NCBI RefSeq assembly: GCF_026586625.1
Contig: NZ_JAODIW010000008.1
Span: 266,382 to 330,381 of the forward strand
Reading direction: 5' to 3'
DNA: 64,000 nt
Origin: Halobium salinum
GTDB lineage: Archaea > Halobacteriota > Halobacteria > Halobacteriales > Haloferacaceae
Numbering within the stretch: position 1 is the first letter of the stretch; the number at the start of each line of letters is the position of its first letter. Below are positions 16,117 to 28,148 of this stretch, in pieces. Below the pieces are notes generated by a model, which saw only the letters and a list, made by a program, of their open reading frames with translations, made no database searches and had not been told where the DNA came from. Position numbers and translations under genes: made by a program.

Positions 16117-17205
16117 TCAGATGAGGTTGTCGAGCTGGTCGTTCTGGAACAGCGAGTCGGCGCTCTCGCGTTCCTCCTCTATCGCGTCGGTCTCCTGCTG
16201 AGCCGCCTTCGCGCGTTCGAAGAACTGCTCGACGCGCTTCGAGCGTTCGACCCCGCCGAGCAGGACGAGCGCCGCGACCCGCTCGGAGCCGAGCGGGAAG
16301 TCGCCGCCGCGGACCTGCATGCAACCGAGCTCCTCTTCGAGCCAGCTTCGAGCGCGTTCGACACCCTTGCGCGAGAGGCGGTCGGGCTCGCCGGCGATGG
16401 CGAGCAGGGCCGCCTCCGCCTCCGTCGCGTCCGGAAGGCTCGTCCCGGTCAGGAGGGCGCGACGGGCCGTGCTCATGACGACGTTGATGTTCTCCTCGGC
16501 GTCCGGGGCGGCCTCGGCGGTGGCGTAGCCGAGTGCGGCGATGCCGCCGGTGCGGAGGGTGTTGATGACCTCGCTGGTGTCGACGACGCTCTCGCCGACC
16601 CCCTCGACGGCCTCGCCGGCGGCCAGCAACAGCCCGAAGCGCTGGGCGATGGCCTTGTTGATGGCGTCGAACCCCTCCTCGACGCTCTCGCCGGCCGAGT
16701 GCCAGGCGTCGTTGTCCACGAGGAGCGTCGCGTCGGCCTCGCGGGCCAGCGTCTTGAGCGAGCGGCCGGCGTTCACCTGGTACATCGACCCCTCGCCCTG
16801 CCCGGGGAGGACGCCGAGCGCGTAGACGGGGACCGAGTAGATACGCGAGAGCTCCTTCACGAGCACGGGCGCGCCGCCTGAGCCCGTACCGCCGCCGAGG
16901 CCGGCGGCGACCCAGATGGCCTCGGCCTCGCTCGTGATGCGCCCTTCGAGGGCCTCGACGACCTCGTGAGAGTCGGCCTGCATCACCTCGGCGCCGAGTT
17001 CGTTGTCGCCGCCGACGCCGTGGCCGTTCACGCGGTCCTGTCCGATCAACACCGTGTCGAGGGGGAGCGACCGGAGGTCGGTCTTCGCGCTGTTGACCGC
17101 GAGCGCACCCGTGACGGCCCCGAACTCCATCTCCGCGTCGAAGTTCGCGATCTCCGTCGCGAGTTTGCCACCTGCCTGTCCGACACCGATCAGGACGGTC
17201 TTCAT
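16117..17205 (-). CDS. CetZ-like tubulin/FtsZ superfamily GTPase
   Basis: This 362-residue protein has the tubulin-superfamily GTPase domain. An N-terminal Rossmann start, LIGVGQAGGK, is followed by the G-box GLGGGTGSGGAPV (about residues 98-110) and a T7-like loop VVDTSEV near residue 210, which would complete the neighbouring subunit's GTP site. CetZ proteins polymerise under the membrane and control archaeal cell shape. The C-terminus is helical and charged (ERAKAAQQETDAIEEERES), ending DNLI. It is divergent from the pilus-like cluster, 76 nt away. It is not FtsZ1 or FtsZ2, judged by its short N-terminus; the paralogue number is not assigned. Confidence 0.85.
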   Translation of the reverse strand: MKTVLIGVGQAGGKLATEIANFDAEMEFGAVTGALAVNSAKTDLRSLPLDTVLIGQDRVNGHGVGGDNELGAEVMQADSHEVVEALEGRITSEAEAIWVAAGLGGGTGSGGAPVLVKELSRIYSVPVYALGVLPGQGEGSMYQVNAGRSLKTLAREADATLLVDNDAWHSAGESVEEGFDAINKAIAQRFGLLLAAGEAVEGVGESVVDTSEVINTLRTGGIAALGYATAEAAPDAEENINVVMSTARRALLTGTSLPDATEAEAALLAIAGEPDRLSRKGVERARSWLEEELGCMQVRGGDFPLGSERVAALVLLGGVERSKRVEQFFERAKAAQQETDAIEEERESADSLFQNDQLDNLI

Positions 17206-17251
17206 ACCCGTCACTCCGAGTCAGCTGCCTTGAATTTTCCGACGGCGAGAA

Positions 17252-17258
17252 TTTATCC
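17252..17258 (+). promoter_or_regulatory. TATA box of the pilus-like cluster
   Basis: TTTATCC is centred about 27 nt before the GTG at 17282, predicting a leaderless transcript that starts at the GTG. The minus-strand cetZ-like promoter must lie in the same 76-nt gap, with AATTTTCC near 17233-17240 the best candidate. Confidence 0.5.
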
Positions 17259-17281
17259 CGAAAGAGGCGACCACCCTCGCC

Positions 17282-17923
17282 GTGCCGACCGACACGTCCG
17301 ACCTCGACCGCCGTCTGCGCGCCGTCGAACGTACGCTGACCGACGGGACCCTCGACGCCGGCGACGGCGACGCCGACACCCGCACCGACGGTGCTCGCGA
17401 CCACGGCCTCGACGCCCTCCCGGAACGCGCGGCGCTCGCCGCCCGTCTCGGTGAGGTGGAGACGCAGTTGGAGACGGTCGAGTCCCGCCTCGACGAACTC
17501 GACGCGGCCACGCAGGCCGTCCGTGGCTACGTCGGCGGCGTCCGGGCGGTGAACCGCGACGTGGAGCGCCGGGCCGACGCCGCGCTCGCCGCCGTCGACC
17601 GCCTCGAACGCGCGATGGCCGACGGGTCGGGAATCGCCGGCGACGACGGCCTCTCCCGAGCGGTCGCCGCCGCCCGGGACGAGACTCCCGTCGGCGAGAG
17701 TGGGGGGAACGACGGAGGCGACGGCTCGGACGACGCCTGCGACCCCTCCAGTTCCGGCGGGGTTCGGTCCGGTGCCGACCTGACGGGTGACGACGCCGAC
17801 GCCGCCGACGGGGCCGGTAGCACCGACAGCGCCGACAGCGAGAGCCCGGTCGATACCGTCGAGAGCGGCGACCGCGGCGGCCACGACGGCTCGGTGGCTG
17901 GTCGGCTCCGCGACGTGCTGTGA
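17282..17923 (+). CDS. Coiled-coil protein opening the pilus-like cluster
   Basis: This 213-residue acidic protein has a central heptad region (ARLGEVETQLETVESRLDELDAATQAVRGYVGGVRAVN, about residues 58-95) and a long disordered Gly/Asp/Ser-rich C-terminal half, closed by a short amphipathic end (GRLRDVL). There is no signal peptide or membrane segment, so it is a likely cytoplasmic scaffold. It is the first gene of an eight-gene run and overlaps the next start by GTGA. It resembles a haloarchaeal coiled-coil family (DUF7310-like, from memory). A GTG start is supported by the TATA position. Confidence 0.7.
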   Translation: MPTDTSDLDRRLRAVERTLTDGTLDAGDGDADTRTDGARDHGLDALPERAALAARLGEVETQLETVESRLDELDAATQAVRGYVGGVRAVNRDVERRADAALAAVDRLERAMADGSGIAGDDGLSRAVAAARDETPVGESGGNDGGDGSDDACDPSSSGGVRSGADLTGDDADAADGAGSTDSADSESPVDTVESGDRGGHDGSVAGRLRDVL

Positions 17924-18486
17924 TTCGCGTCGTCCTCGCCGTCGCGCTCGCCGTCGCCCTCCTCGCCGCCTCGGTGCCGGCCGTCGAGGACGCGCGGGAG
18001 TCCGCCTCCGTCTCGGCGCTCGACCGCGAGGTCCGTGCCGTCCACGGCGCGGCCGCCGGACTCGTCGACGCCGAAGACGCGACCGCCGACGGGGTGCCGG
18101 GCGCTCGCCGGACGTTGACCGTCGTCCTCCCACGCCGGGGGTGGCGCAGGGCCGGCGTCGACTACCTGAAAATCGGCTGTGACCCCCCCGACGCCGCCGG
18201 CGACGACGTCATCTCCTACCGCCTCACCGGTGGCGTCGCTCGTCGGTTCGGAGTGCCCGGCGTCGACCTCGACACGCCGGACCAGCCAGTGGTGTTCACC
18301 GAGCCGGGGGCCCACCGTCTCACGCTCGGGCTGGCGCGCGGGTCGTCCGGCGAGGAACCTCGGGTCGTCGTTCGCCGCGGGACGACGCCCTCGGGCTCCG
18401 GTCGGTCGCCCGCCCTCCTGTCGCCCCCTCCCCTGTTTCCTACCCTCCTGTCGCCCGTCGTCCCCGCGAGAGTTCAAGTGAGGTGA
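17920..18486 (+). CDS. Exported or membrane-anchored protein of the pilus-like cluster
   Basis: This 188-residue protein begins with a hydrophobic segment (IRVVLAVALAVALLAASVPAVEDA), a signal peptide or N-terminal anchor. The rest is beta-rich (RTLTVVLPRRGWRRAGVDYLKI) and Pro/Ser-rich at the end, giving a probable extracellular domain. One Cys (GCDPP) is present. The start and stop both overlap neighbouring genes by four bases (GTGA). No enzymatic motif is seen. It belongs with the T4P/Tad-like genes by position (DUF7311-like, from memory). Confidence 0.65.
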   Translation: MIRVVLAVALAVALLAASVPAVEDARESASVSALDREVRAVHGAAAGLVDAEDATADGVPGARRTLTVVLPRRGWRRAGVDYLKIGCDPPDAAGDDVISYRLTGGVARRFGVPGVDLDTPDQPVVFTEPGAHRLTLGLARGSSGEEPRVVVRRGTTPSGSGRSPALLSPPPLFPTLLSPVVPARVQVR

Positions 18487-20777
18487 GGCGACCATCGAGC
18501 GTCGTGTTCCCCATCTCGAATTTCGACATCGGGTTCGACCTCGACTTCGACCTCGAACTCGGTTCGGTCGTCGGCTCCGACCCGAGCGGACTCCTGACCG
18601 ACGGCGGCGACGACTCGAACGGCGACTGCCGCTGTCGGGCTTCCTTTCACGAGCCGCGGGGAACCGGGCTCGACCGACGGGTCGAACTCCACCTCGACGG
18701 CGACGACTGTCCGGGAGCGGGCGACCTCGCCGCGTCGCCACCCTGCCGAGAGCGGGCGATTCGAGCCCTCGCGAGCCGCGACGCCGACGTGGTCAGGAGC
18801 CGCCACCGGGGCCGCGAACGCCGGTACGTCGACGGCGCGGCCGGACTCCTCCTCGCCGCGGGACGCTTCGTCGAGCGCGCCGAGTGGCACGACGAGCGCC
18901 TCGCCGACCGTGCGGCACGCGACCCCCTCGCGGCGGCGCGGGAGGCGACCGGTCGGGCCGGCCCGGTGCGCGAAATCGCCGTCGAGACCGGACTCGCGGC
19001 GGGCGCCGACCGCGTCCGTGACCTCGGCAGGTGCGCGAGCGACGGGGGCGGCGACGGAGTCGGCCGGGGCGACGGTGTCGACGTGGACGACGCAGACGCG
19101 GACGACGTAAACGTGGTAGACGACGACGTCCGGGGTGACGAGGGCGACCGCTACGCCGGCGCGCTCCGGGCGTTCGTCGGCCCGACCGTGGCGCGCTCCC
19201 GGGTCGCCGGCCCGCCGCCGGGGGCCAGACTACTCGACCGGCGGACGCTCGACTCCGGCGCGGTGGTCCGGCGGTACGGGACCGCCGACGGGCGGGAGCG
19301 GTACTGTCTGGACCCCGTCGCCCACCGGCTGGACGACGAATCGACCGCCGTACTCGCCGCGGCCCGCGACCGTCTCGCCGCCGGCGCCGTCGACGGCGGG
19401 GAGCGGGCGCCACACCGGGCGGTGAAGGCCGTCGTCGACGCCGGGGAGGGAGGAAGGGAGCGAGGTGGAGGGAAGGGAGACACCGGAGGAGACGACGCAC
19501 TCCCCGTCGAGCGCCTCGGGACCGTCCTCGCGCGCTACACCCGAGGCAACGGCGTGGTCGACGCGCTGTTCGGCGACCCTCGGGTCTCCGACGCCTTCGT
19601 CACCGCGCCGGCGGCGGCGAACCCGGTCCGCGTGACCGTCGACGGTGAGACGCTCCCGACGAACGCCCGGCTCACGCCGACCGGGGCGGCCACGCTCGCC
19701 TCCCGGTTTCGGCGGGCGAGCGGGCGCTCGTTCTCGCGGGCGGCGCCGACGCTCGACGCCGCGATTTCGGGGCCGGACGACGGCCGGATTCGCGTCGCCG
19801 GCGTCACCGACCCGGCGAGCGACGGCGTCGCGTTCGCCTTCCGGCGGCACGGCGGGGACGCGTTCACCCTGCCCGCGCTCGTCGCAAACGGGACGCTCCC
19901 GGCCGACGCCGCCGCGCTCCTGTCGCTCGCCGTCGAGCGCGCCGCGGCGACGCTCGTGGCGGGCACCCGCGGCGCCGGGAAGACGACGCTGCTCGGGACG
20001 CTCCTCTGGGAACTCCCCGAGTCGACGCGGACGGTGACGGTCGAGGACACGTCCGAACTCCCGGTCGAGGCGCTCCAGCGCGAGGGTCGGGACGTCCAAC
20101 CGCTATACGCCGGCACCGACGCGGACGCGACGCTGACGCCGACCGACGCGCTCCGGACCGCCCTCCGACTCGGGGAGGGCGCCCTCGTCGTCGGCGAAGT
20201 TCGCGGCGAGGAGGCCGCGGCGCTGTACGAGGCGATGCGCGTCGGCGCGGGCGGCAGTGCGGTGCTCGGCACCATCCACGGCGACGGCGGCGAGGACGTG
20301 CGCGAGCGCGTCGTCGCCGACCTCGGCGTGACCCCGTCGGCGTTCGGCGCGACCGACCTCGTCGTCACCTGCGGCCGCGACGCCGACGGCCGCCACCGGG
20401 TGAACCGAATCGAGGAGGTTCGAACGACCGACTCCGGCGTCCGGTTCGCGACGCTGTTCGAAGTCGGCGGGGGTGACGGCGTCGACGAAGTTCGCGGCGA
20501 GGAGGAGTCCGCCGGACTCCGACCGACGGGGACGGTCGACCGCGGCAACAGCCGACTCGTCGCCTCCCTCGCCCGCCCCGACGAGTCCTACGCGGACGTG
20601 CTCGACGCCCTCGGCCGCCGCGAGTCCGCCGTCGCCGCCCTCGCGCGGACCGGGCGGACGCGACCGGCGACGGTCACCGCCGCGTACCGGAGCCGACGGG
20701 GCGGAGGTGAAGCCGCCGACGAAGCCGGCGGCGGCGACTCCGTCGCCGGGCGGGCCGACGACGGGGGCACGCCGTGA
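18483..20777 (+). CDS. Type II/IV secretion (pilus assembly) ATPase
   Basis: This 764-residue protein is the motor of the cluster. A long variable N-terminal half has a Cys-rich patch (CRCRASF, DDCPGAG, PPCRER, about residues 48-86) and an Asp-rich insert (about 195-220). The ATPase core includes GTRGAGKTTLLG (Walker A, about 494-505), the Asp-box region VEDTSELP, ALVVGEVRGEEA (Walker B-like, about 566-577) and GTIHGDG (His box, about 598). This matches the VirB11/PilB/TadA superfamily, which powers pilin extraction at the membrane. Length and order fit archaeal PilB-type ATPases. Acidic or Gly-rich linkers make the middle poorly conserved. Confidence 0.85.
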   Translation: MRRPSSVVFPISNFDIGFDLDFDLELGSVVGSDPSGLLTDGGDDSNGDCRCRASFHEPRGTGLDRRVELHLDGDDCPGAGDLAASPPCRERAIRALASRDADVVRSRHRGRERRYVDGAAGLLLAAGRFVERAEWHDERLADRAARDPLAAAREATGRAGPVREIAVETGLAAGADRVRDLGRCASDGGGDGVGRGDGVDVDDADADDVNVVDDDVRGDEGDRYAGALRAFVGPTVARSRVAGPPPGARLLDRRTLDSGAVVRRYGTADGRERYCLDPVAHRLDDESTAVLAAARDRLAAGAVDGGERAPHRAVKAVVDAGEGGRERGGGKGDTGGDDALPVERLGTVLARYTRGNGVVDALFGDPRVSDAFVTAPAAANPVRVTVDGETLPTNARLTPTGAATLASRFRRASGRSFSRAAPTLDAAISGPDDGRIRVAGVTDPASDGVAFAFRRHGGDAFTLPALVANGTLPADAAALLSLAVERAAATLVAGTRGAGKTTLLGTLLWELPESTRTVTVEDTSELPVEALQREGRDVQPLYAGTDADATLTPTDALRTALRLGEGALVVGEVRGEEAAALYEAMRVGAGGSAVLGTIHGDGGEDVRERVVADLGVTPSAFGATDLVVTCGRDADGRHRVNRIEEVRTTDSGVRFATLFEVGGGDGVDEVRGEEESAGLRPTGTVDRGNSRLVASLARPDESYADVLDALGRRESAVAALARTGRTRPATVTAAYRSRRGGGEAADEAGGGDSVAGRADDGGTP

Positions 20778-22543
20778 GTCGCACGTCGGGCGAGCGTCGA
20801 CTCGACGTCGCGGTGAAATCCCTCGCGGGGGTCTACCCCTGGCCTGCGCCGGACGCCGGCGACGACCTCTCCCGGGCGCTCGCCTTTCTCGACTCGGCGC
20901 GGGCGCCGTCGGAGGTCGTCGCCGCGGGGTACGTCGCCGGTGCGGTCGCCGCGGCCCTCCTCCTCCCCCTCACGGTCGTCCTCCCCCCGCTCGTCGCGAC
21001 CGCGGCCGCAGTCGCGGCCGGTTTCGGCACGATGTACGCCGCCCACCGCGGACCGGTGGTACTCGCCCGAATCAGGCGAACGCGGGCGCTCGGCGCGTCG
21101 AGCGACCTGGTCGGGCGGGCGGTGCTCCGGATGCGCCTCGACCCGGCACTCGAAGGGGCGGCCGCTTTCGCCGCCCGGGGTGGCGACGGGCCGCTGGTCC
21201 GGAGCCTCCGCCGACACGTCCGTCGGGCGGCCGGCACGCCACGGAGCGGCCTCGACGACTTCGCCGCCGAGTGGGGGTCGTCGTTCGCGGCGCTCGACCG
21301 GTCGGTGTCACTGCTAGTGGCGGGCGCCGCCGCGCCGGCGGAGGAGCGGGCGCGGACGCTCGACCGCGCCCTCGACACCGTCCTGGAGGGCACTCGCGAG
21401 GAACTCGCGGCGTTCGCCGGGCGGGTCAGGGGGCCGGCGACCGGCCTCTACGCCTTCGGCGTGCTCCTCCCGCTGGCGCTGGTCGGCGTCGTCCCCGCCG
21501 CCGGCGTGGCCGGCATCGGCGTGACGCCGCTCGCGTTCGTGCTCGTCTACGACCTGTTGCTCCCCGGGGGACTGCTCACCGCGAGTGTCTGGCTCGTCTC
21601 CCGCCGTCCGGTGGCGTTCCCGCCGCCGTCGGTGACTCGTGACCACCCGGGCGTTCCCGAGCGGCGCTGGTCCGAACCCGCGGCGGCACTGAGCGCGGGT
21701 GTGACCGGCTGGGTCGGCGCGGGCGTCGCGGCCGGGGACTGGGCCGCGCCGGTCGCCGCCGTCGGCGCCGGAGCGGGCGCGTGGCTGGTCGTCCGCTACC
21801 GACCGGTGGCGTCGGTCCGCGAGCGCGTCCGTGCCGTCGAGGCCGGCCTCCCGGACGCGCTCTACCTCGTCGGCCGGCGCGTCGCGGAGGGGGTCGCCGT
21901 CGAGGTCGCACTCGACCGCGCGGCCGACGAGGTCCCCGACGCGACCGGCGACGTGCTCGGGGACGCCGTCCGAGTCGGGCGCACCCTCCGAGTGGACGTC
22001 CACAGCGCCTTCCTCGGCGACTGCGGTGCGCTCGCCGACGTGCCGAGTCCACGCCTTCGGGGCGCCGCACGCCTGCTCGCGCTGGCGGCCGCCGAGGGGC
22101 GGCCCGCCGGGGAGACCGTCGTCGCGATGGCCGACCAGCTCGCCGACCTGCGACGGCTCGAACGCGAGGCGCGCCGCGAGTTAGCGTCCGTGACGGGGAC
22201 GCTCTCGAACACGGCCGCCCTCTTCGGCCCGCTCGTCGGCGGCGCCACGGTCGCGCTGGCGGACGCGATGGCCGACCACGCCGGCGGCGAGGGGATGACG
22301 GGCGCACCCACCGCGCCGAACGGCGCCGCCGGCGCGACCGGAGGCGCCGCGCTCGCCACCGCCGACCTCGGACCGGCCGTCTTCGTCTACGTCCTCCTGC
22401 TCGCCGCAATTCTCACCGGTCTCGCGGTAGCGCTGGAGCGAGGACTGGACCCGGCGCTCGTCGGCTACCGCGTCGGGCTGGCGCTGCTGTCGGCGACGGC
22501 GACGTTCCTCGCCGCCGTCGCCGGCGCCGGCCTGCTGGCCTGA
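20774..22543 (+). CDS. TadC/PilC-like membrane platform protein with duplicated T2SSF domain
   Basis: This 589-residue multi-pass protein contains two type II secretion F-like halves. Hydrophobic pairs lie near residues 55-95 and 225-275, then near 300-340, 470-500 and 540-589. The cytoplasmic helical domains between them (RAVLRMRLDPALEGAAAF; RRVAEGVAVEVALDRAADE with LADLRRLEREARRELASV) are the typical four-helix T2SSF folds. It should anchor the ATPase and pilin platform in the cytoplasmic membrane. The start overlaps the ATPase stop (GTGA). The tandem arrangement is usual in archaeal PilC/FlaJ-type proteins. Confidence 0.8.
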   Translation: MSRTSGERRLDVAVKSLAGVYPWPAPDAGDDLSRALAFLDSARAPSEVVAAGYVAGAVAAALLLPLTVVLPPLVATAAAVAAGFGTMYAAHRGPVVLARIRRTRALGASSDLVGRAVLRMRLDPALEGAAAFAARGGDGPLVRSLRRHVRRAAGTPRSGLDDFAAEWGSSFAALDRSVSLLVAGAAAPAEERARTLDRALDTVLEGTREELAAFAGRVRGPATGLYAFGVLLPLALVGVVPAAGVAGIGVTPLAFVLVYDLLLPGGLLTASVWLVSRRPVAFPPPSVTRDHPGVPERRWSEPAAALSAGVTGWVGAGVAAGDWAAPVAAVGAGAGAWLVVRYRPVASVRERVRAVEAGLPDALYLVGRRVAEGVAVEVALDRAADEVPDATGDVLGDAVRVGRTLRVDVHSAFLGDCGALADVPSPRLRGAARLLALAAAEGRPAGETVVAMADQLADLRRLEREARRELASVTGTLSNTAALFGPLVGGATVALADAMADHAGGEGMTGAPTAPNGAAGATGGAALATADLGPAVFVYVLLLAAILTGLAVALERGLDPALVGYRVGLALLSATATFLAAVAGAGLLA

Positions 22544-22566
22544 ACGAGCGAGACCGGGCTTCGAGC

Positions 22567-23082
22567 GTGAACACACGAGCGTTCAAGTACGGGGACGGGA
22601 CCACCCCCGTCGTGTTCGACGCACCCATCGACGCCTGGTACGTCTGGTTCGGAACCGCCGTCGCCGGCGCGACCCTGCTCGGCGTCGTCGGCTCGCTGCC
22701 GACGACAGCGCCGCCCGACGCGACGGTCGTGGCCGACACCGTGGACTCCGTCGCGGCCAGCGAGACGGCGGCGACGGGGGAGGTCCCACTCGACGCGACC
22801 GCGCTCAGAATCGGACCCCACCGGGTCGCCCTCCGCAACGACGCCGGAACGGCGCACGGGTCGTTCGCGTTCGGCCCCGTGACGCCCGTCGCCGACGGCT
22901 CGCGCCTCCAGCGGGTCGTGTACGGCACACCCCCGAACCGCGTCTTCGACTCGCCGACCGCCTTCCAGCAGGCGGTCGTCGAGGCGCGGACCCGCGAAGC
23001 GACCTGGGAGACCGCCGACCGAACGATGGTCGTCAGGTCGACCGAGTGGGGAGGTGTCGATGTCACGCTCGTCGACGCGTGA
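22567..23082 (+). CDS. Single-TM protein of the pilus-like cluster
   Basis: A GTG at 22567 gives 171 residues. One transmembrane helix lies near residues 20-42 (WYVWFGTAVAGATLLGVVG), followed by about 125 residues of beta-rich exported domain (LRIGPHRVALRNDAGTAHGSFAFGPVTPV). No cysteines or catalytic motif are seen. The N-terminal 20 residues are cytoplasmic and polar. It is probably a minor pilin-like or assembly component (DUF7283-like, from memory). It is 23 nt after the TadC-like stop and overlaps the next gene by 23 nt. Confidence 0.7.
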   Translation: MNTRAFKYGDGTTPVVFDAPIDAWYVWFGTAVAGATLLGVVGSLPTTAPPDATVVADTVDSVAASETAATGEVPLDATALRIGPHRVALRNDAGTAHGSFAFGPVTPVADGSRLQRVVYGTPPNRVFDSPTAFQQAVVEARTREATWETADRTMVVRSTEWGGVDVTLVDA

Positions 23083-23557
23083 AGCCGGTCGAATCGGCAC
23101 GCCGTCGCCGACACGACTATCGAGCCGACGGAGTGGCTATCCCGGCGACCGCGCACAGGCCGAACCGACAGTCGCGCTGGCGGCGGTCTTCGCCGTCGCC
23201 GTGGGGGTAAGCCTCTACGCCGGCGTCCTCGGCGACGTCGTCCCGGACCGCGAGCGAGACCTGTCGGAGCCGACGCTCCGACGGGTGTTCGACCGGGTGA
23301 CTGCGGGCGGAGTCGCGTCGCCACCCCGACTCTCGGAGGCTCTCGCCGGCGACCCGGAGAGCGGTCGCGGCGGGTCGCAGGTCGGCCCGTCCGGGTACGG
23401 CGTGAACGCCACGCTCCGTGCGGGCGGCGAACGCTGGAGCGCCGGCCCGACGCCGCCGCCGGGCGCCGACCCCGACGTGACTTCGCGCTCGGTGAGTGTT
23501 CGGCTCGACCCTGGCACCGTCAGAGCGGGGAGACTCGTCGTCCGGGTGTGGTCGTGA
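23060..23557 (+). CDS. Pilin-like protein with class III signal sequence
   Basis: This 165-residue protein has a short polar leader ending in DRAQAEP (about residues 28-34), then a hydrophobic helix (TVALAAVFAVAVGVSLYAGVLG). An Arg-Ala-Gln-x-Glu-Pro junction before the hydrophobic stretch resembles the archaeal prepilin-peptidase (PibD) substrate pattern. The rest is Gly/Pro-rich and extracellular. The start ATG at 23060 is chosen because GGAGGTG (23050-23056), a near-perfect Shine-Dalgarno, sits just upstream; GTG at 23054 is the alternative. This is the best pilin candidate in the cluster. Confidence 0.7.
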   Translation: MSRSSTREAGRIGTPSPTRLSSRRSGYPGDRAQAEPTVALAAVFAVAVGVSLYAGVLGDVVPDRERDLSEPTLRRVFDRVTAGGVASPPRLSEALAGDPESGRGGSQVGPSGYGVNATLRAGGERWSAGPTPPPGADPDVTSRSVSVRLDPGTVRAGRLVVRVWS

Positions 23558-24444
23558 CCAGCGCCCTCATCGACGCGACGGTGTGTCTGTTGCTCGTCTC
23601 GGCCGGCGTCGGGACGCTCGTCTCGGTGAACGACCCGTCGGCGGTCGGCGGGCCGGCGTCCGGCGAGCGGGCGGCCGACCGTGCCGACGCGACCGCGGAG
23701 ACGCTGGCGACGGCCACGGCGTCGGTGAACTACTCGCTCGCGACGGGGGTTCGCGAGGCCGGCGGGCCGACCGACCGTCTCCCCAGACTGGACGGCAACC
23801 GCTTCCGCCGGACCGACCACGGGTCGCTCGCCAGACTGCTCGCCGACGCTGCGGTGGCGAACACGACGGTCGACGGCCGGCGGACGAGTCTGGCATCGGT
23901 CGGGTTCGTCCGTGCCGTCCGGACGACGGTCGCGAACCGGACGGGCCCGCGCGTCCAGGTCGTCGCGCTCTGGCGGCCGTCTCCCGGGGGGGCCGTCGAA
24001 GGACGGGTCGTCGCCGGCGCCGAGCCGCCACGAACCGGAGCCGTCCACGCCGCGGCGCTGGCGGTTCCCGTCGGTGGAACGGGGAATTCCGGAGCGAGTA
24101 GGCGAACCGGAGAAGCGTCGTTCGGACGGCTGGCCGAGGGAGTCGCTCGGAAGACGATTCGAACGCTCGTCCCGGCCGGACGAACCGAGACTGCGCTCCG
24201 GGCCGACTACCCGGCGTCGGCGCTCGTCGAACACCGGTATCGTCGACTGGGTGCGGCGCTCGGCGTCGAGGTCCTCCCGGCCGTCGAACGGGGGAACACG
24301 ACCGCCGCGAATCGTCAGCTCACCCGGGTACTCCAGCCTCGGGTCGAACGCGGCCTTCGGGACCGGTTCCCCTCCGCCGAGCGCGCGGGGGAGTCGACCG
24401 CCGCGAGCCGGGTGCGAATCGTCGTCAGGACGTGGTCGCCGTGA
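23554..24444 (+). CDS. Single-TM exported protein of the pilus-like cluster
   Basis: About 296 residues. The N-terminal helix (SALIDATVCLLLVSAGVGTLVSV) begins almost at residue 1, like a TadE-type or mature-pilin helix without a long leader. The exported part is acidic and Arg-rich in places, with potential N-glycosylation sequons (NYS, NTT, NRT). GTG at 23554 gives the GTGA overlap seen throughout this cluster; in-frame GTG at 23548 is possible. No known domain is recognised. Probably a minor structural subunit. Confidence 0.7.
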   Translation: MTSALIDATVCLLLVSAGVGTLVSVNDPSAVGGPASGERAADRADATAETLATATASVNYSLATGVREAGGPTDRLPRLDGNRFRRTDHGSLARLLADAAVANTTVDGRRTSLASVGFVRAVRTTVANRTGPRVQVVALWRPSPGGAVEGRVVAGAEPPRTGAVHAAALAVPVGGTGNSGASRRTGEASFGRLAEGVARKTIRTLVPAGRTETALRADYPASALVEHRYRRLGAALGVEVLPAVERGNTTAANRQLTRVLQPRVERGLRDRFPSAERAGESTAASRVRIVVRTWSP

Positions 24445-27400
24445 GGCTGGCCGAGGACCGTCGCGCCCGGGTCCCGTTCGCACTCGTCGGCGTCCTCCTG
24501 CTGGTCGGGAGCGCGACGTTCGCCGCGTCGCTCGCGCAGCCACCGGTCCGCGAGGACCGTTCGGTCGGGGTCGCGATGGACCGTGCCGAGGCGTCGGCGA
24601 CGACCGAGTTGCGCTCGGCCGTCCGCGAGGCCGCGCGCGACGCCGCCCGTCGTCCGGTTACCGCGGCGGCAAACACGACGGCCGGGCGCGCCCTGAACGA
24701 GTCGACGCCGTTCCGAGACGCCCTCCGGCTCCGAATCTACCTCGCCGCCCGCGAGGCGTTCGCCTCCTCGTCCGTCGACCGACGGGGGGTCGTCGCGAGC
24801 GCGACCCTGTCCGGCGTCGAGGAGACCACGGCGTCGGTCCGGACGGCGAAACGCCGCGTCGGAGTCGAGTCCGTCGGCGGGGGGAGCGCGGTGCGCGTCG
24901 TCCTCCGGAACGTGACGATTCGGGCCGAGCGCCGGGACCGCGTCGTCGCGAGCGAACGGGAGACGCTGACCGCGACGGTGGCGACGCCCGTCCTCGCCGC
25001 ACACGACCGGACCGTGGAGTACGAGCGACGGCTGAACGCCGCCCCGCTCGCGGGGCCCGGGCTCGGCAACCACCTCAGCGCTCGACTCTACCCCATCGCG
25101 TGGGCCCGGGGTGGCGCGCAGTTCGGCGGCGCGCCCATCGAGAACGTCGTCTCGAACCGACACGTCGAGTTCGCGACGAACGGCGGCCTCCTCGCGACCC
25201 AGCGCAACGTGTACGGTCGGACCGACCGCGGCGCCCGCTACGGCTATCGCGTCGCCGCCGGCACGGTCGCGCTCCACGACCTGTTCGCGGGGGAAGTGGT
25301 GACGGAGGGGAACCGGGCCGACGAGTTCGTTCCGCCGCCCGCCCTCGAGCCGCCCCGCCAGGGCACGCCGCCGACGCTGACGGCCGAGAGGAACGGAGGA
25401 ACCGACTCCGGACCGAATCGGACGTTCACCGTGAGCGTCAACCGGACCGCGGACCTCGCGTACCTCTCGCTTCTCGACGGCGAGCCGACGCGTGGCGTCG
25501 CGCGGTCCGACGACCTCGACGCCGCGCTCGGCGGCGCGTACCGCGCCGAGGCCGTCCTTCTGACGCGTGTTCGCCAGACGCGGAACGAGGACCGACCCCC
25601 GGCGACCGCTCCCGGGGCGAACTGGTCGCTCGTCCGCGAGTCCGTGTCGACGCGGACCGTCGTCCGGGACACCGCGGTCGACGAACGGTGGCGTCCGACG
25701 ACGGCGGGCGTGGAGGGGAGTAGGGGCGGAGGCTCGGACCAGACGTTCACACGGTTCGCCCGGTACGTCGTCGAGCGCCACACCGTGACCCGAACGTGGC
25801 GCCGGGGGAGCGAGACGGTCCGCCGCGAGTCGACCTGGGCGGACCGCCACCGAGTCGACGCCGCGCTCCGTGGCCGGTACCGGCCGACGGCGGGCGCACC
25901 GAACCGGTCGACCCGACCGCTGTTCCGCCGCGGCGGCGCCGTCGACGGCCCGAACCTCGCGGACGTGCGGGGAGCCGCCCGGAGCCGTCTCGTCGACGGC
26001 AACGGCGGCCGCGACGGCGTCGCCCGCCGAGCCGTCGAGGGTAGTCTCGACTCCGGGTCCCGACTCGGCGTCGGCCTCGGGGGCGGCGGGACCGAGACCG
26101 TCGTCCGCGGAGACCGCCCGAGGACGTTGCGGCCGTGGGTCGCCGCCGACCTCGCCGACCTCCGCGAGCGGGTCCGAGCCGTCGGCGTCGAGGTGTCGAG
26201 CGGCGCCGTCGCGGCCGGCGACGCGAACCCCCCGGCGGCGCTGGCGTCTCGCCTCCGGTCCCGGCGTGCGTCGCTCGTCGACGCCCCGGAGACGTACGAC
26301 GGCGCCGCCGACCGCGCGAGAGTCGCGGCGCGAGCGGCGTACCTCGACCGGGTGCTCGCGGCGCTCGACCGGCAGGCGGCCGACCAGTCGACCGCGAACG
26401 GCCGGCTCGGGGACCTGCTGGCCGAGCGCGGACCGGGCCCCGGCGACGTGCGGCGTCTCGTCGCCGGGCGGTACGACGAGGGGTCGACCCCGGAGTCGGT
26501 CGTCGACGCCGACGCTCCCGGTGGGTCGGTGACGCTGGTTCCGGACGGGTCGCCCGGCTACCTGACCCTCTCGCCGACGACCGGTCGCCACGTCGCGGGC
26601 CTCCCGGAGGGCGCCAGCTACCGCCCGCTCGCCGCCAGGAACGTGAACCTCTTCACGGTTCCCTACGGCGACGCCGCCGACGCGGTGTTGGAGCCGCTCC
26701 TAGCCGAGGAGAAGCGCGTCTCGCTTCGCACCGGGGCGGCGACGCTCGTCGCCGCGAACCGGACACTGGAGCGAGAGGGCGGGTCGAACCTGACGCTCCA
26801 GAGACGGCGGACGCGGCTCCGGAAGGCCGTCTCCAGGGGGATACGACCGGTCGATACCGCCGCGAGGGCGACGCTGGCCCGGCGGACCGACCTCTCGAAG
26901 CGCGAGCGGGTGGCCGTCGTGACGGCGGCCGGGCGCGAGTGGAACGGCGTCGGGCGACGGGCGCTCGCGGCGACGAACGGGTCGTTCGCCCGGGCGGTGG
27001 CGGCGGAGGCGAGGACCCGAGCGGACCTGTCGGCGCGGGAGGCAAACACCCTCTCCGTCCGACTCCGGGTTCGCATCGGGAGCGTCACCGAGCGCTCGGC
27101 CGCGTCGGTGCCGCAGGCGCCGACGAATCGAACCGCGGTGGCGACGCAGGCGGTCTCGCACGCCCTCGTCGAGCACGCGGTCTCGGGGGCGGCCGGGAAC
27201 CTCTCCGAGAGGGCGGTGGAACGGCTCGCCGGCGGCACCTACGGGTCGGTTCCGGCCGGACTCCCCGTCCTCCCGCCGGGCGTCGGACCGACGTACGGCG
27301 TGGTCAACGCGTGGACGGTCGACGTGCGCGGCGAGTACCGCCGCTTCGCCGTGCGAGCGCGAAGCGGACCACCGTCCGACGGTGCCGGCCTAACGTACGT

Positions 27401-27632
27401 CCGCGACGGGGCCTCGGTCCGTCTCGACGTGGACGGCGACGGCGACGGCGAGCGACTGGGGGCGAACGAACGAGTGTCGTTCCGGACCGGGACGGTCGTC
27501 GTCGTCGCCGTCCCGCCGTGGGGTACCGGCGTCGGCGACGTGGACGGCGTGATGAACGAGAGTTCGGAGGGGTGGCCTCGGCCCGGGTGCGAGTCCGAGC
27601 CGGCCCAAGCGTGTGAGACGGGCGGCGTGTGA
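24441..27632 (+). CDS. Very large single-TM surface protein of the pilus-like cluster
   Basis: This 1063-residue protein has an N-terminal membrane helix (VPFALVGVLLLVGSATFAAS, about residues 11-31) preceded by RRAR, recalling a class III or signal-anchor start. It is followed by a roughly 1000-residue exported region rich in Arg, Ala and Gly, with many NxT/S sequons (NTT, NES, NVT, NRT, NLT). No catalytic motif is recognised. Helical stretches (residues about 560-700) alternate with beta-rich segments. It is the last and largest gene of the run, overlapping the preceding stop by GTGA, and could be a tip adhesin or assembly scaffold (DUF7286-like, from memory). Confidence 0.7.
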   Translation: MRLAEDRRARVPFALVGVLLLVGSATFAASLAQPPVREDRSVGVAMDRAEASATTELRSAVREAARDAARRPVTAAANTTAGRALNESTPFRDALRLRIYLAAREAFASSSVDRRGVVASATLSGVEETTASVRTAKRRVGVESVGGGSAVRVVLRNVTIRAERRDRVVASERETLTATVATPVLAAHDRTVEYERRLNAAPLAGPGLGNHLSARLYPIAWARGGAQFGGAPIENVVSNRHVEFATNGGLLATQRNVYGRTDRGARYGYRVAAGTVALHDLFAGEVVTEGNRADEFVPPPALEPPRQGTPPTLTAERNGGTDSGPNRTFTVSVNRTADLAYLSLLDGEPTRGVARSDDLDAALGGAYRAEAVLLTRVRQTRNEDRPPATAPGANWSLVRESVSTRTVVRDTAVDERWRPTTAGVEGSRGGGSDQTFTRFARYVVERHTVTRTWRRGSETVRRESTWADRHRVDAALRGRYRPTAGAPNRSTRPLFRRGGAVDGPNLADVRGAARSRLVDGNGGRDGVARRAVEGSLDSGSRLGVGLGGGGTETVVRGDRPRTLRPWVAADLADLRERVRAVGVEVSSGAVAAGDANPPAALASRLRSRRASLVDAPETYDGAADRARVAARAAYLDRVLAALDRQAADQSTANGRLGDLLAERGPGPGDVRRLVAGRYDEGSTPESVVDADAPGGSVTLVPDGSPGYLTLSPTTGRHVAGLPEGASYRPLAARNVNLFTVPYGDAADAVLEPLLAEEKRVSLRTGAATLVAANRTLEREGGSNLTLQRRRTRLRKAVSRGIRPVDTAARATLARRTDLSKRERVAVVTAAGREWNGVGRRALAATNGSFARAVAAEARTRADLSAREANTLSVRLRVRIGSVTERSAASVPQAPTNRTAVATQAVSHALVEHAVSGAAGNLSERAVERLAGGTYGSVPAGLPVLPPGVGPTYGVVNAWTVDVRGEYRRFAVRARSGPPSDGAGLTYVRDGASVRLDVDGDGDGERLGANERVSFRTGTVVVVAVPPWGTGVGDVDGVMNESSEGWPRPGCESEPAQACETGGV

Positions 27633-27698
27633 ACACCGGACGCCGTCGACCCGACCGCAGTGACAACCGTTTTGCCCGCGGCGGGCCGACTCCGGGGT

Positions 27699-28148
27699 AT
27701 GTTGTACGACGCAGTCGACGAGCCGGCCTCGCTCGACGCCGCGGCGCTGCAGGCCGCCTACGAGCGCGAGCTGGCGGCCGTCGTCGAGGCCGAGGGGCTC
27801 GACGCCGTCGCCGACGAGACGGGAGTCGACCGGGACCGACTGGCGGCGCTCGACGGCGAGCGCGCCGACAGCGACACCGACGTCGGCCAGCTCACGCTCT
27901 CCGAGGCCGCCGCGGTGCTCGCGGTCTCGGACGACTACCCCGACGCCGAGGCCATCGTGATGGAGGTCCGCGACCACCTCCTGCTGTCGATGACGACCGG
28001 CGTCGTCGACGTCGACATCCTCGCCGCCAACCTCGACCACGACCTGACGGGCCAGGAGGTCCAGCAAGCCATCGAGGGGCGCAACCCGATGACGCTCGCC
28101 CAACTCGCCGCCATCCAGCGCTTCCTCGCCGAGCGCAACGACCGCTGA
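27699..28148 (+). CDS. Conserved haloarchaeal acidic helical protein
   Basis: This 149-residue protein starts at ATG 27699 (MLYDAVDEP). It is almost entirely helical and acidic (AAYERELAAVVEAEGLDAVADETG; LSEAAAVLAVSDDYPDAEAIVMEVRDHLLL). The repeated use of VDVDILAANLDHDLTGQEVQ suggests a helix-turn-helix-like module, possibly DNA- or protein-binding (DUF5791-like, from memory). It is 3 nt from the following SDR gene and likely co-transcribed with it. Confidence 0.75.
   Translation: MLYDAVDEPASLDAAALQAAYERELAAVVEAEGLDAVADETGVDRDRLAALDGERADSDTDVGQLTLSEAAAVLAVSDDYPDAEAIVMEVRDHLLLSMTTGVVDVDILAANLDHDLTGQEVQQAIEGRNPMTLAQLAAIQRFLAERNDR

Follow-up and report, generated by a model that had tools for sequence, protein, structure and literature searches.

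Subclade 4F of the halobacterial type IV pili (T4P) was catalogued by Makarova, Koonin & Albers (2016), who gave no function for it; its ATPase often carries an N-terminal cysteine-rich domain, a coiled-coil component and an FtsZ-like neighbour accompany it, and a PilA-family protein was proposed as its major pilin (PMC4858521). The pilB2/C2 regulon located beside cetZ2, also of function not known, was described by Brown & Duggin (2023; PMC9856176). Neither a functional study of the pilB2-C2/4F system nor papers on the DUF names of its proteins were found in the open-access literature. The system considered here is a cluster of eight colinear genes, all on one strand (17282–27632), in a 64,000-nucleotide stretch of Halobium salinum DNA (contig NZ_JAODIW010000008.1, positions 266,382 to 330,381; hereafter the window), which is assigned from matching features to subclade 4F and to the cetZ2-linked pilB2-C2 regulon. 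We put at about even the chance that it encodes a haloarchaeal DNA-uptake (competence-type) pilus, that is, a T4P machine organized as three leaderless units under one promoter type.

The likeness to subclade 4F comprises a VirB11-type ATPase with a cysteine-rich N-terminal domain, a TadC-like platform, a coiled-coil protein, an FtsZ/CetZ neighbour, pilin-like proteins and a large surface protein; relative to 4F as published, the present locus adds three units with a common promoter, a DUF7382 gene that also has it, and the class III site of the giant protein. It is of the same locus type as the pilB2/C2 regulon and likewise has an epimerase gene at its flank, cetZ2 being adjacent in only part of the class. 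PMC9856176 regards pilB2/C2 as a single regulon that may be a mobile element, and describes neither promoters and modules nor a wider gene set. The gene cluster was thus already described, the new parts being the set of genes that share the promoter and the interpretation as DNA uptake; an earlier interpretation made from the letters alone (the sequence-only reading) had called the cluster uncharacterised, which holds for its function and not for its cataloguing. Although haloarchaea exchange genes heavily, no DNA-uptake machine has been identified for this group, and archaea reportedly lack ComEC (PMC7749143, PMC10133366); the evidence below names a concrete candidate machine that roughly three in four haloarchaeal species carry.

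Three promoters within the cluster

The features of the locus are as follows:

16117–17214, minus strand: cetZ2-like gene, divergent neighbour (Pfam CetZ_C, E 1.5e-65)
17252–17281, plus strand: promoter P1; TATA box TTTAT at 17252–17256, element GGCGACCA at 17266–17273, leaderless GTG start at 17282
17282–17923, plus strand: DUF7310 coiled-coil protein, 213 aa (Pfam E 7e-27)
17920–18486, plus strand: DUF7311, single N-terminal helix (Pfam E 2e-40)
18473–18503, plus strand: promoter P2 of PilB; TATA box TTCAA at 18473–18477, element GGCGACCA at 18487–18494
18504–20777, plus strand: PilB-type ATPase (T2SSE E 3e-20), start revised from the promoter
20774–22543, plus strand: PilC/TadC-like platform protein, 589 aa (T2SSF matches among orthologues)
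22582–22611, plus strand: promoter P3; TATA box TTCAA at 22582–22586, element CGGGACCA at 22596–22603
22612–23082, plus strand: DUF7283, 156 aa (Pfam E 3e-55), N-terminal helix straight after the start Met
23060–23557, plus strand: DUF7285 small pilin (Pfam E 2e-34), class III site RA↓QAEP
23554–24444, plus strand: DUF7284 pilin-like subunit (Pfam E 2e-80)
24441–27632, plus strand: DUF7286 pilin-like giant subunit, 1063 aa (Pfam 1111 bits over 1000 positions), class III-like site RA↓RVPFAL

The eight same-strand genes, the giant protein and the CetZ neighbour all appear as the sequence-only reading had them, and it is the transcription of the cluster that has to be redrawn. A comparison of upstream regions places a TATA box 25–31 bases before the starts of DUF7310, PilB and DUF7283, and only rarely before the other five genes; downstream of the box, at the same three genes, lies a conserved CGGG(A/G)CCA element, and in the window P1, P2 and P3 have the common layout TATA-N9-SGSGRCCA-N8-start. 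A relaxed TATA-element-start pattern, controlled by its reversal, matched 142 times in 80 named loci, with 136 matches at PilB (44 loci), DUF7283 (59) and DUF7310 (33), and once when reversed. The comparison predicts three leaderless transcription units, starting at DUF7310, PilB and DUF7283, and the single operon behind one TATA box that had been supposed is rejected on these grounds. Because of the same comparison, the start of PilB is moved to GTG 18504 and that of DUF7283 to GTG 22612, most likely their true positions. The dense GTGA overlaps noted earlier are found at 17920, 20774, 23554 and 24441; with PilB starting at 18504, there is therefore none ahead of it.

Two other interpretations of the element were discarded. 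The covariation of its positions does not support a palindromic operator, except at one pair. Nor is the element a general trait of leaderless genes in these loci, since something like it occurs in only two of ten clusters of other open reading frames (ORFs) with a TATA box at the start; both belong to one family (DUF785x type), whose genes in Halorubrum and Haloarcula loci lie close to the cluster.

As for the neighbourhood, the divergent gene is CetZ2-like (529 bits against 4b45, 325 bits against 4b46), and its start lacks the common promoter element (element median −15 at cetZ starts). The G+C content is 75–77% across the cluster (18000–28000 of the window) and 65–73% for most of the window.

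The machine, its pilin-like subunits and their conservation

The pilus-type machine that had been recognized is borne out by the T2SSE ATPase, the T2SSF matches of platform orthologues, conserved catalytic residues and the class III sites. Among PilB orthologues C49, C51, C76, C88, G499-K500-T501, E572 and H599 are invariant (numbering from 18483), so that four cysteines mark the N-terminal domain and the Walker A, Glu and His box residues are conserved. The platform protein of the window has no Pfam match of its own, and 13 of 22 orthologues match T2SSF weakly (best E 3e-7). The resemblance to Tad systems is sound for the ATPase sequence, whose best match among solved structures is CpaF, and goes no further: PilB scores 120 bits (E 1e-34) against TIGR03819, far under the cut-off of 373 bits, and the cluster proteins have no Pfam match to TadE, TadF or Flp, so the cluster does not classify as a Tad/Flp pilus.

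Single N-terminal hydrophobic helices had been seen in four exported proteins, one of them with a pilin-type junction; such a helix is in fact present in five (DUF7311, DUF7283, DUF7285, DUF7284 and DUF7286), and the giant also has a class III-like site. In its orthologues DUF7285 is about 120–135 residues long, with a short leader and an R[GA]↓Q.EP site, features by which this protein is classed as a normal small pilin, of the kind previously thought missing. In DUF7286 the N-terminal motif R[GA]R[VI]PFAL is near-invariant (73 of 78 ORFs) and fits a class III signal; the protein carries 13 N-glycosylation sequons, and its predicted structure is multi-domain and mostly confident (mean predicted local distance difference test score, pLDDT, 79; predicted template modelling score, pTM, 0.57). 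The model of DUF7284 reaches a mean pLDDT of 86.5 and a pTM of 0.81. Most lineages outside Haloferacaceae have in DUF7284 a prepilin site R[AG](I/V)STVxD. The Haloferacaceae genera seen, including that of the window and excepting Salinigranum, lack the R[AG], and their start codon occupies the former cleavage position (RA↓ISTVVD vs M↓TSTVLD), while the aspartate of this segment (STVxD) is invariant; judging by these alignments, it is as if processing by the peptidase had been bypassed in this family. In the orthologues seen, DUF7283 and DUF7311 have neither a class III nor an R[GA] prepilin site; they are probably unprocessed membrane helpers.

The genome (4.46 Mb in 14 contigs) encodes six T2SSE-type ATPases, one family A24 prepilin peptidase and three Pilin_N genes. 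The peptidase gene sits on a contig other than that of the cluster, so that its reported absence is correct for this locus and not for the organism, and processing of DUF7285 and DUF7286, whose class III sites are conserved, is predicted. By Pfam, no PilA-type (Pilin_N) gene is encoded within the cluster, the three Pilin_N genes lying elsewhere in the genome.

DUF7286 is present in 224 of 292 Halobacteria genomes. Nearly all of the 80 named loci keep the order DUF7310-DUF7311-PilB-PilC-DUF7283-DUF7285-DUF7284-DUF7286, as the sequence-only reading had supposed; beyond these eight genes the loci share no conserved gene for a secreted cargo. Twenty genomes without DUF7286 were tested, and they gave no DUF7311 or DUF7284 match and no convincing DUF7310; decaying remnants are found in two further genomes (G125, G012). 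Splits of orthologous loci, which had been named as evidence that would go against a single complex, do occur: in G116 and G124 the block from DUF7310 to PilC stands apart from the block from DUF7283 to DUF7286, and related splits are seen in G069, G117 and G033, with parts of both halves retained in all five. The clearest splits follow the promoter boundary before DUF7283 and therefore speak for modules of one system, not against one system. The idea that the eight genes form one functional complex is supported by these joint absences and by the parts of both halves kept in the split genomes.

Some genomes of family f4 carry two DUF7286 copies (L071/L072 in G077, L073/L074 in G116), one or both of them in a pilin-only cassette without nearby PilB/PilC. 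In one DUF7286 gene (L019, G100) a single in-frame TAG interrupts the reading frame, probably a pseudogene or a sequencing error. Methanosarcina acetivorans, included as a control, has DUF7286 and DUF7284 matches above the cut-off, and the pilin set therefore extends beyond Halobacteria.

Other genes behind the same promoter

A strict form of the promoter pattern matches 17 times in the genome of the window and its reversed control not at all. The coding matches are the DUF7310, PilB and DUF7283 units, together with a MinD-type ATPase gene (L172) followed by a KaiC-like gene, a lone gene for a TctA-family protein (L178) and a gene for a DUF7382 protein (L186) with the pilin-like N terminus RA↓IEGLPIRLVIALVVGVASL. 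Ten relatives gave strict matches in several genomes and one control match across all; the promoter precedes Cas4-like genes in three of these genomes, a gene of secreted LTD-PLD type in two, and TctA in one more. A wider sample of 59 haloarchaeal genomes yielded matches in 25 and none with the control. The genes found there behind the promoter are DUF7310/PilB/DUF7283, NucS_N/Zn-ribbon type (8), MinD-DUF7125, Cas4-like, HerA-like, DUF7382, DUF7857 and TFB; a Rad3-type helicase gene was also seen in other haloarchaea. The Pfam matches of NucS_N and Cas4 are modest (E 1e-7 to 3e-5), and the LTD-PLD, Rad3, hisG, hisI and nreA assignments come from sequences read by eye, not from database matches.

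As an independent test, the cluster loci themselves were searched for these families. HerA and DUF7382 genes adjoin DUF7310 in five loci (L072, L075, L077, L086, L087), of which L075 additionally holds MinD-DUF7125 and DUF7857, and in L046 a TctA fragment follows DUF7286 at a distance of 3 kb. Most cluster-adjacent DUF7382 genes carry the element; the HerA genes do not clearly do so. The promoter element predicts partner genes of the machine.

Leaders of another kind are found under the same promoter. These are two-codon leaderless ORFs (RTG-NNN-TGA/TAA), about 11 of them in the genome of the window (L171, L173-L177, L179, L183-L185, L187, with sites at position about 1500) and about 10 in relatives (L212, L213, L217, L218, L220, L224, L227, L231, L258, L259), followed by about 100 bases that in most include a conserved CCGCCTGTTCGCC-like segment. 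The genes behind them, as read by eye, are hisG, hisI, nreA-like (two genera), NUDIX and M20 peptidase genes. An Rfam scan of the leader loci returned tRNAs only and no match to the leaders, which may belong to a novel family of small RNAs or structured leaders. In three genomes (L246, L250, L251) a version of the element stands just before the start of a TFB gene.

Proposed DNA uptake and the competing functions

Among the functions that the sequence-only reading had considered (adhesion, DNA uptake, secretion, protein display), the evidence favours DNA uptake. According to a transposon screen, natural transformation of Methanococcus maripaludis depends on T4P genes as well as on a MinD-like ATPase, a thermonuclease, an OB-fold protein and a TctA-like protein, and Methanoculleus thermophilus likewise needs TctA for it (PMC10133366); in Sulfolobales, HerA/VirB4-type ATPases participate in DNA import (PMC11868833). 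The DNA-uptake reading is favoured because the promoter set overlaps the M. maripaludis list, by family, in four categories (T4P, MinD-like ATPase, TctA-like membrane protein, secreted nuclease), and because of this role of HerA/VirB4-type ATPases. According to the mechanism proposed, PilB, with its four-cysteine N-terminal domain, would power the PilC-like platform, and from the membrane-anchored pilin-like subunits DUF7285, DUF7284 and giant DUF7286 a filament would be formed under common regulation, most likely tipped by DUF7286 as its binding component; a further small pilin could come from the separate DUF7382 gene. The filament would bind extracellular DNA, which a secreted nuclease and the TctA-family protein would help through the membrane, and HerA-, Cas4- and NucS-type proteins would handle it inside the cell.

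Several observations weigh against this proposal. The correspondence with M. maripaludis is one of families only, and the NucS, Cas4-like, HerA and PLD-type members of the promoter set all come from genomes other than that of the window. Within the latter, most matches are two-codon leaders before unrelated genes (hisG, hisI, nreA-like), so genes outside DNA uptake use the promoter too, and what it represents may be a type of core promoter and not the site of a regulator. No clear dyad symmetry was found in the element. Some cluster-bearing genomes, G014 for example, have no strict match. Finally, a fold search of the PDB with the DUF7286 and DUF7284 models gave no match at E < 0.001, which leaves DNA binding as something that we infer.

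The main rival is a pilus for adhesion or biofilm formation, in which the same T4P machine would carry DUF7286 at its tip as a giant adhesin that binds surfaces or other cells, and the common promoters would reflect general stress or surface control. The T4P systems of Haloferax volcanii studied so far (PilB3-C3, PilB1-C1) do act in adhesion (PMC6491452), and the size, the sequons and the mostly confident multi-domain model of DUF7286 would suit an adhesin; yet the promoters in common with TctA, MinD, NucS_N, Cas4-like, HerA and PLD-type genes are left unexplained, as is the physical linkage to HerA and DUF7382, and we regard this function as rather unlikely. The linkage and the presence of HerA-type ATPases and nucleases in the same promoter set would also suit a mating-type device that imports DNA on cell contact and not from solution, as the T4P and HerA/VirB4-type ATPases of Sulfolobales do (PMC11868833). 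However, no CedA-like channel was identified, mating in H. volcanii does not need pibD, and its cetZ2 transcripts mostly fall under mating conditions (PMC7749143), which makes such a device improbable. Improbable as well, in our judgement, is a pseudopilus-type secretion or display machine, in which a short DUF7285/DUF7284 filament would push DUF7286 or another protein to the surface: pilin-like subunits of varied size around one giant do recall pseudopilin tips, and the cluster itself lacks a PilA-type gene, but the DUF7382 pilin-like gene exists in trans under the same promoter, and within the locus in other lineages, and the locus offers no further conserved cargo.

Taken in its widest form, the DNA-uptake reading becomes a tentative proposal, for which the chances fall somewhat short of even: that Halobacteria own a dedicated and widely conserved competence regulon, formed by the 4F pilus with its giant tip, a TctA-family DNA channel, MinD/KaiC-type ATPases and HerA, Cas4-like, NucS-type and secreted PLD-type proteins, served by a distinct leaderless promoter class (TATA-N9-CGGGACCA-N8-start), and with one pilin that went from peptidase-processed to leaderless in Haloferacaceae. 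This orphan pilus has relatives in genetically tractable Haloferax, so the proposal is testable; Hfx. mediterranei is a laboratory strain for which uptake of plasmid DNA has been reported (PMC6759562).

With respect to known import systems, the candidate would resemble the Ups pili and Ced system of Sulfolobales in joining a T4P to a HerA/VirB4-type ATPase for DNA import; it differs in that CedA/CedA1-like proteins were not identified and in that the pilins are unrelated in the searches made. The pilus of M. maripaludis is the Epd system, and the haloarchaeal pilins and nuclease family differ from those of the methanogen. The recurrence in both groups of the same functional set, namely a T4P, a MinD, a TctA and a secreted nuclease, would suggest a common archaeal mode of transformation.

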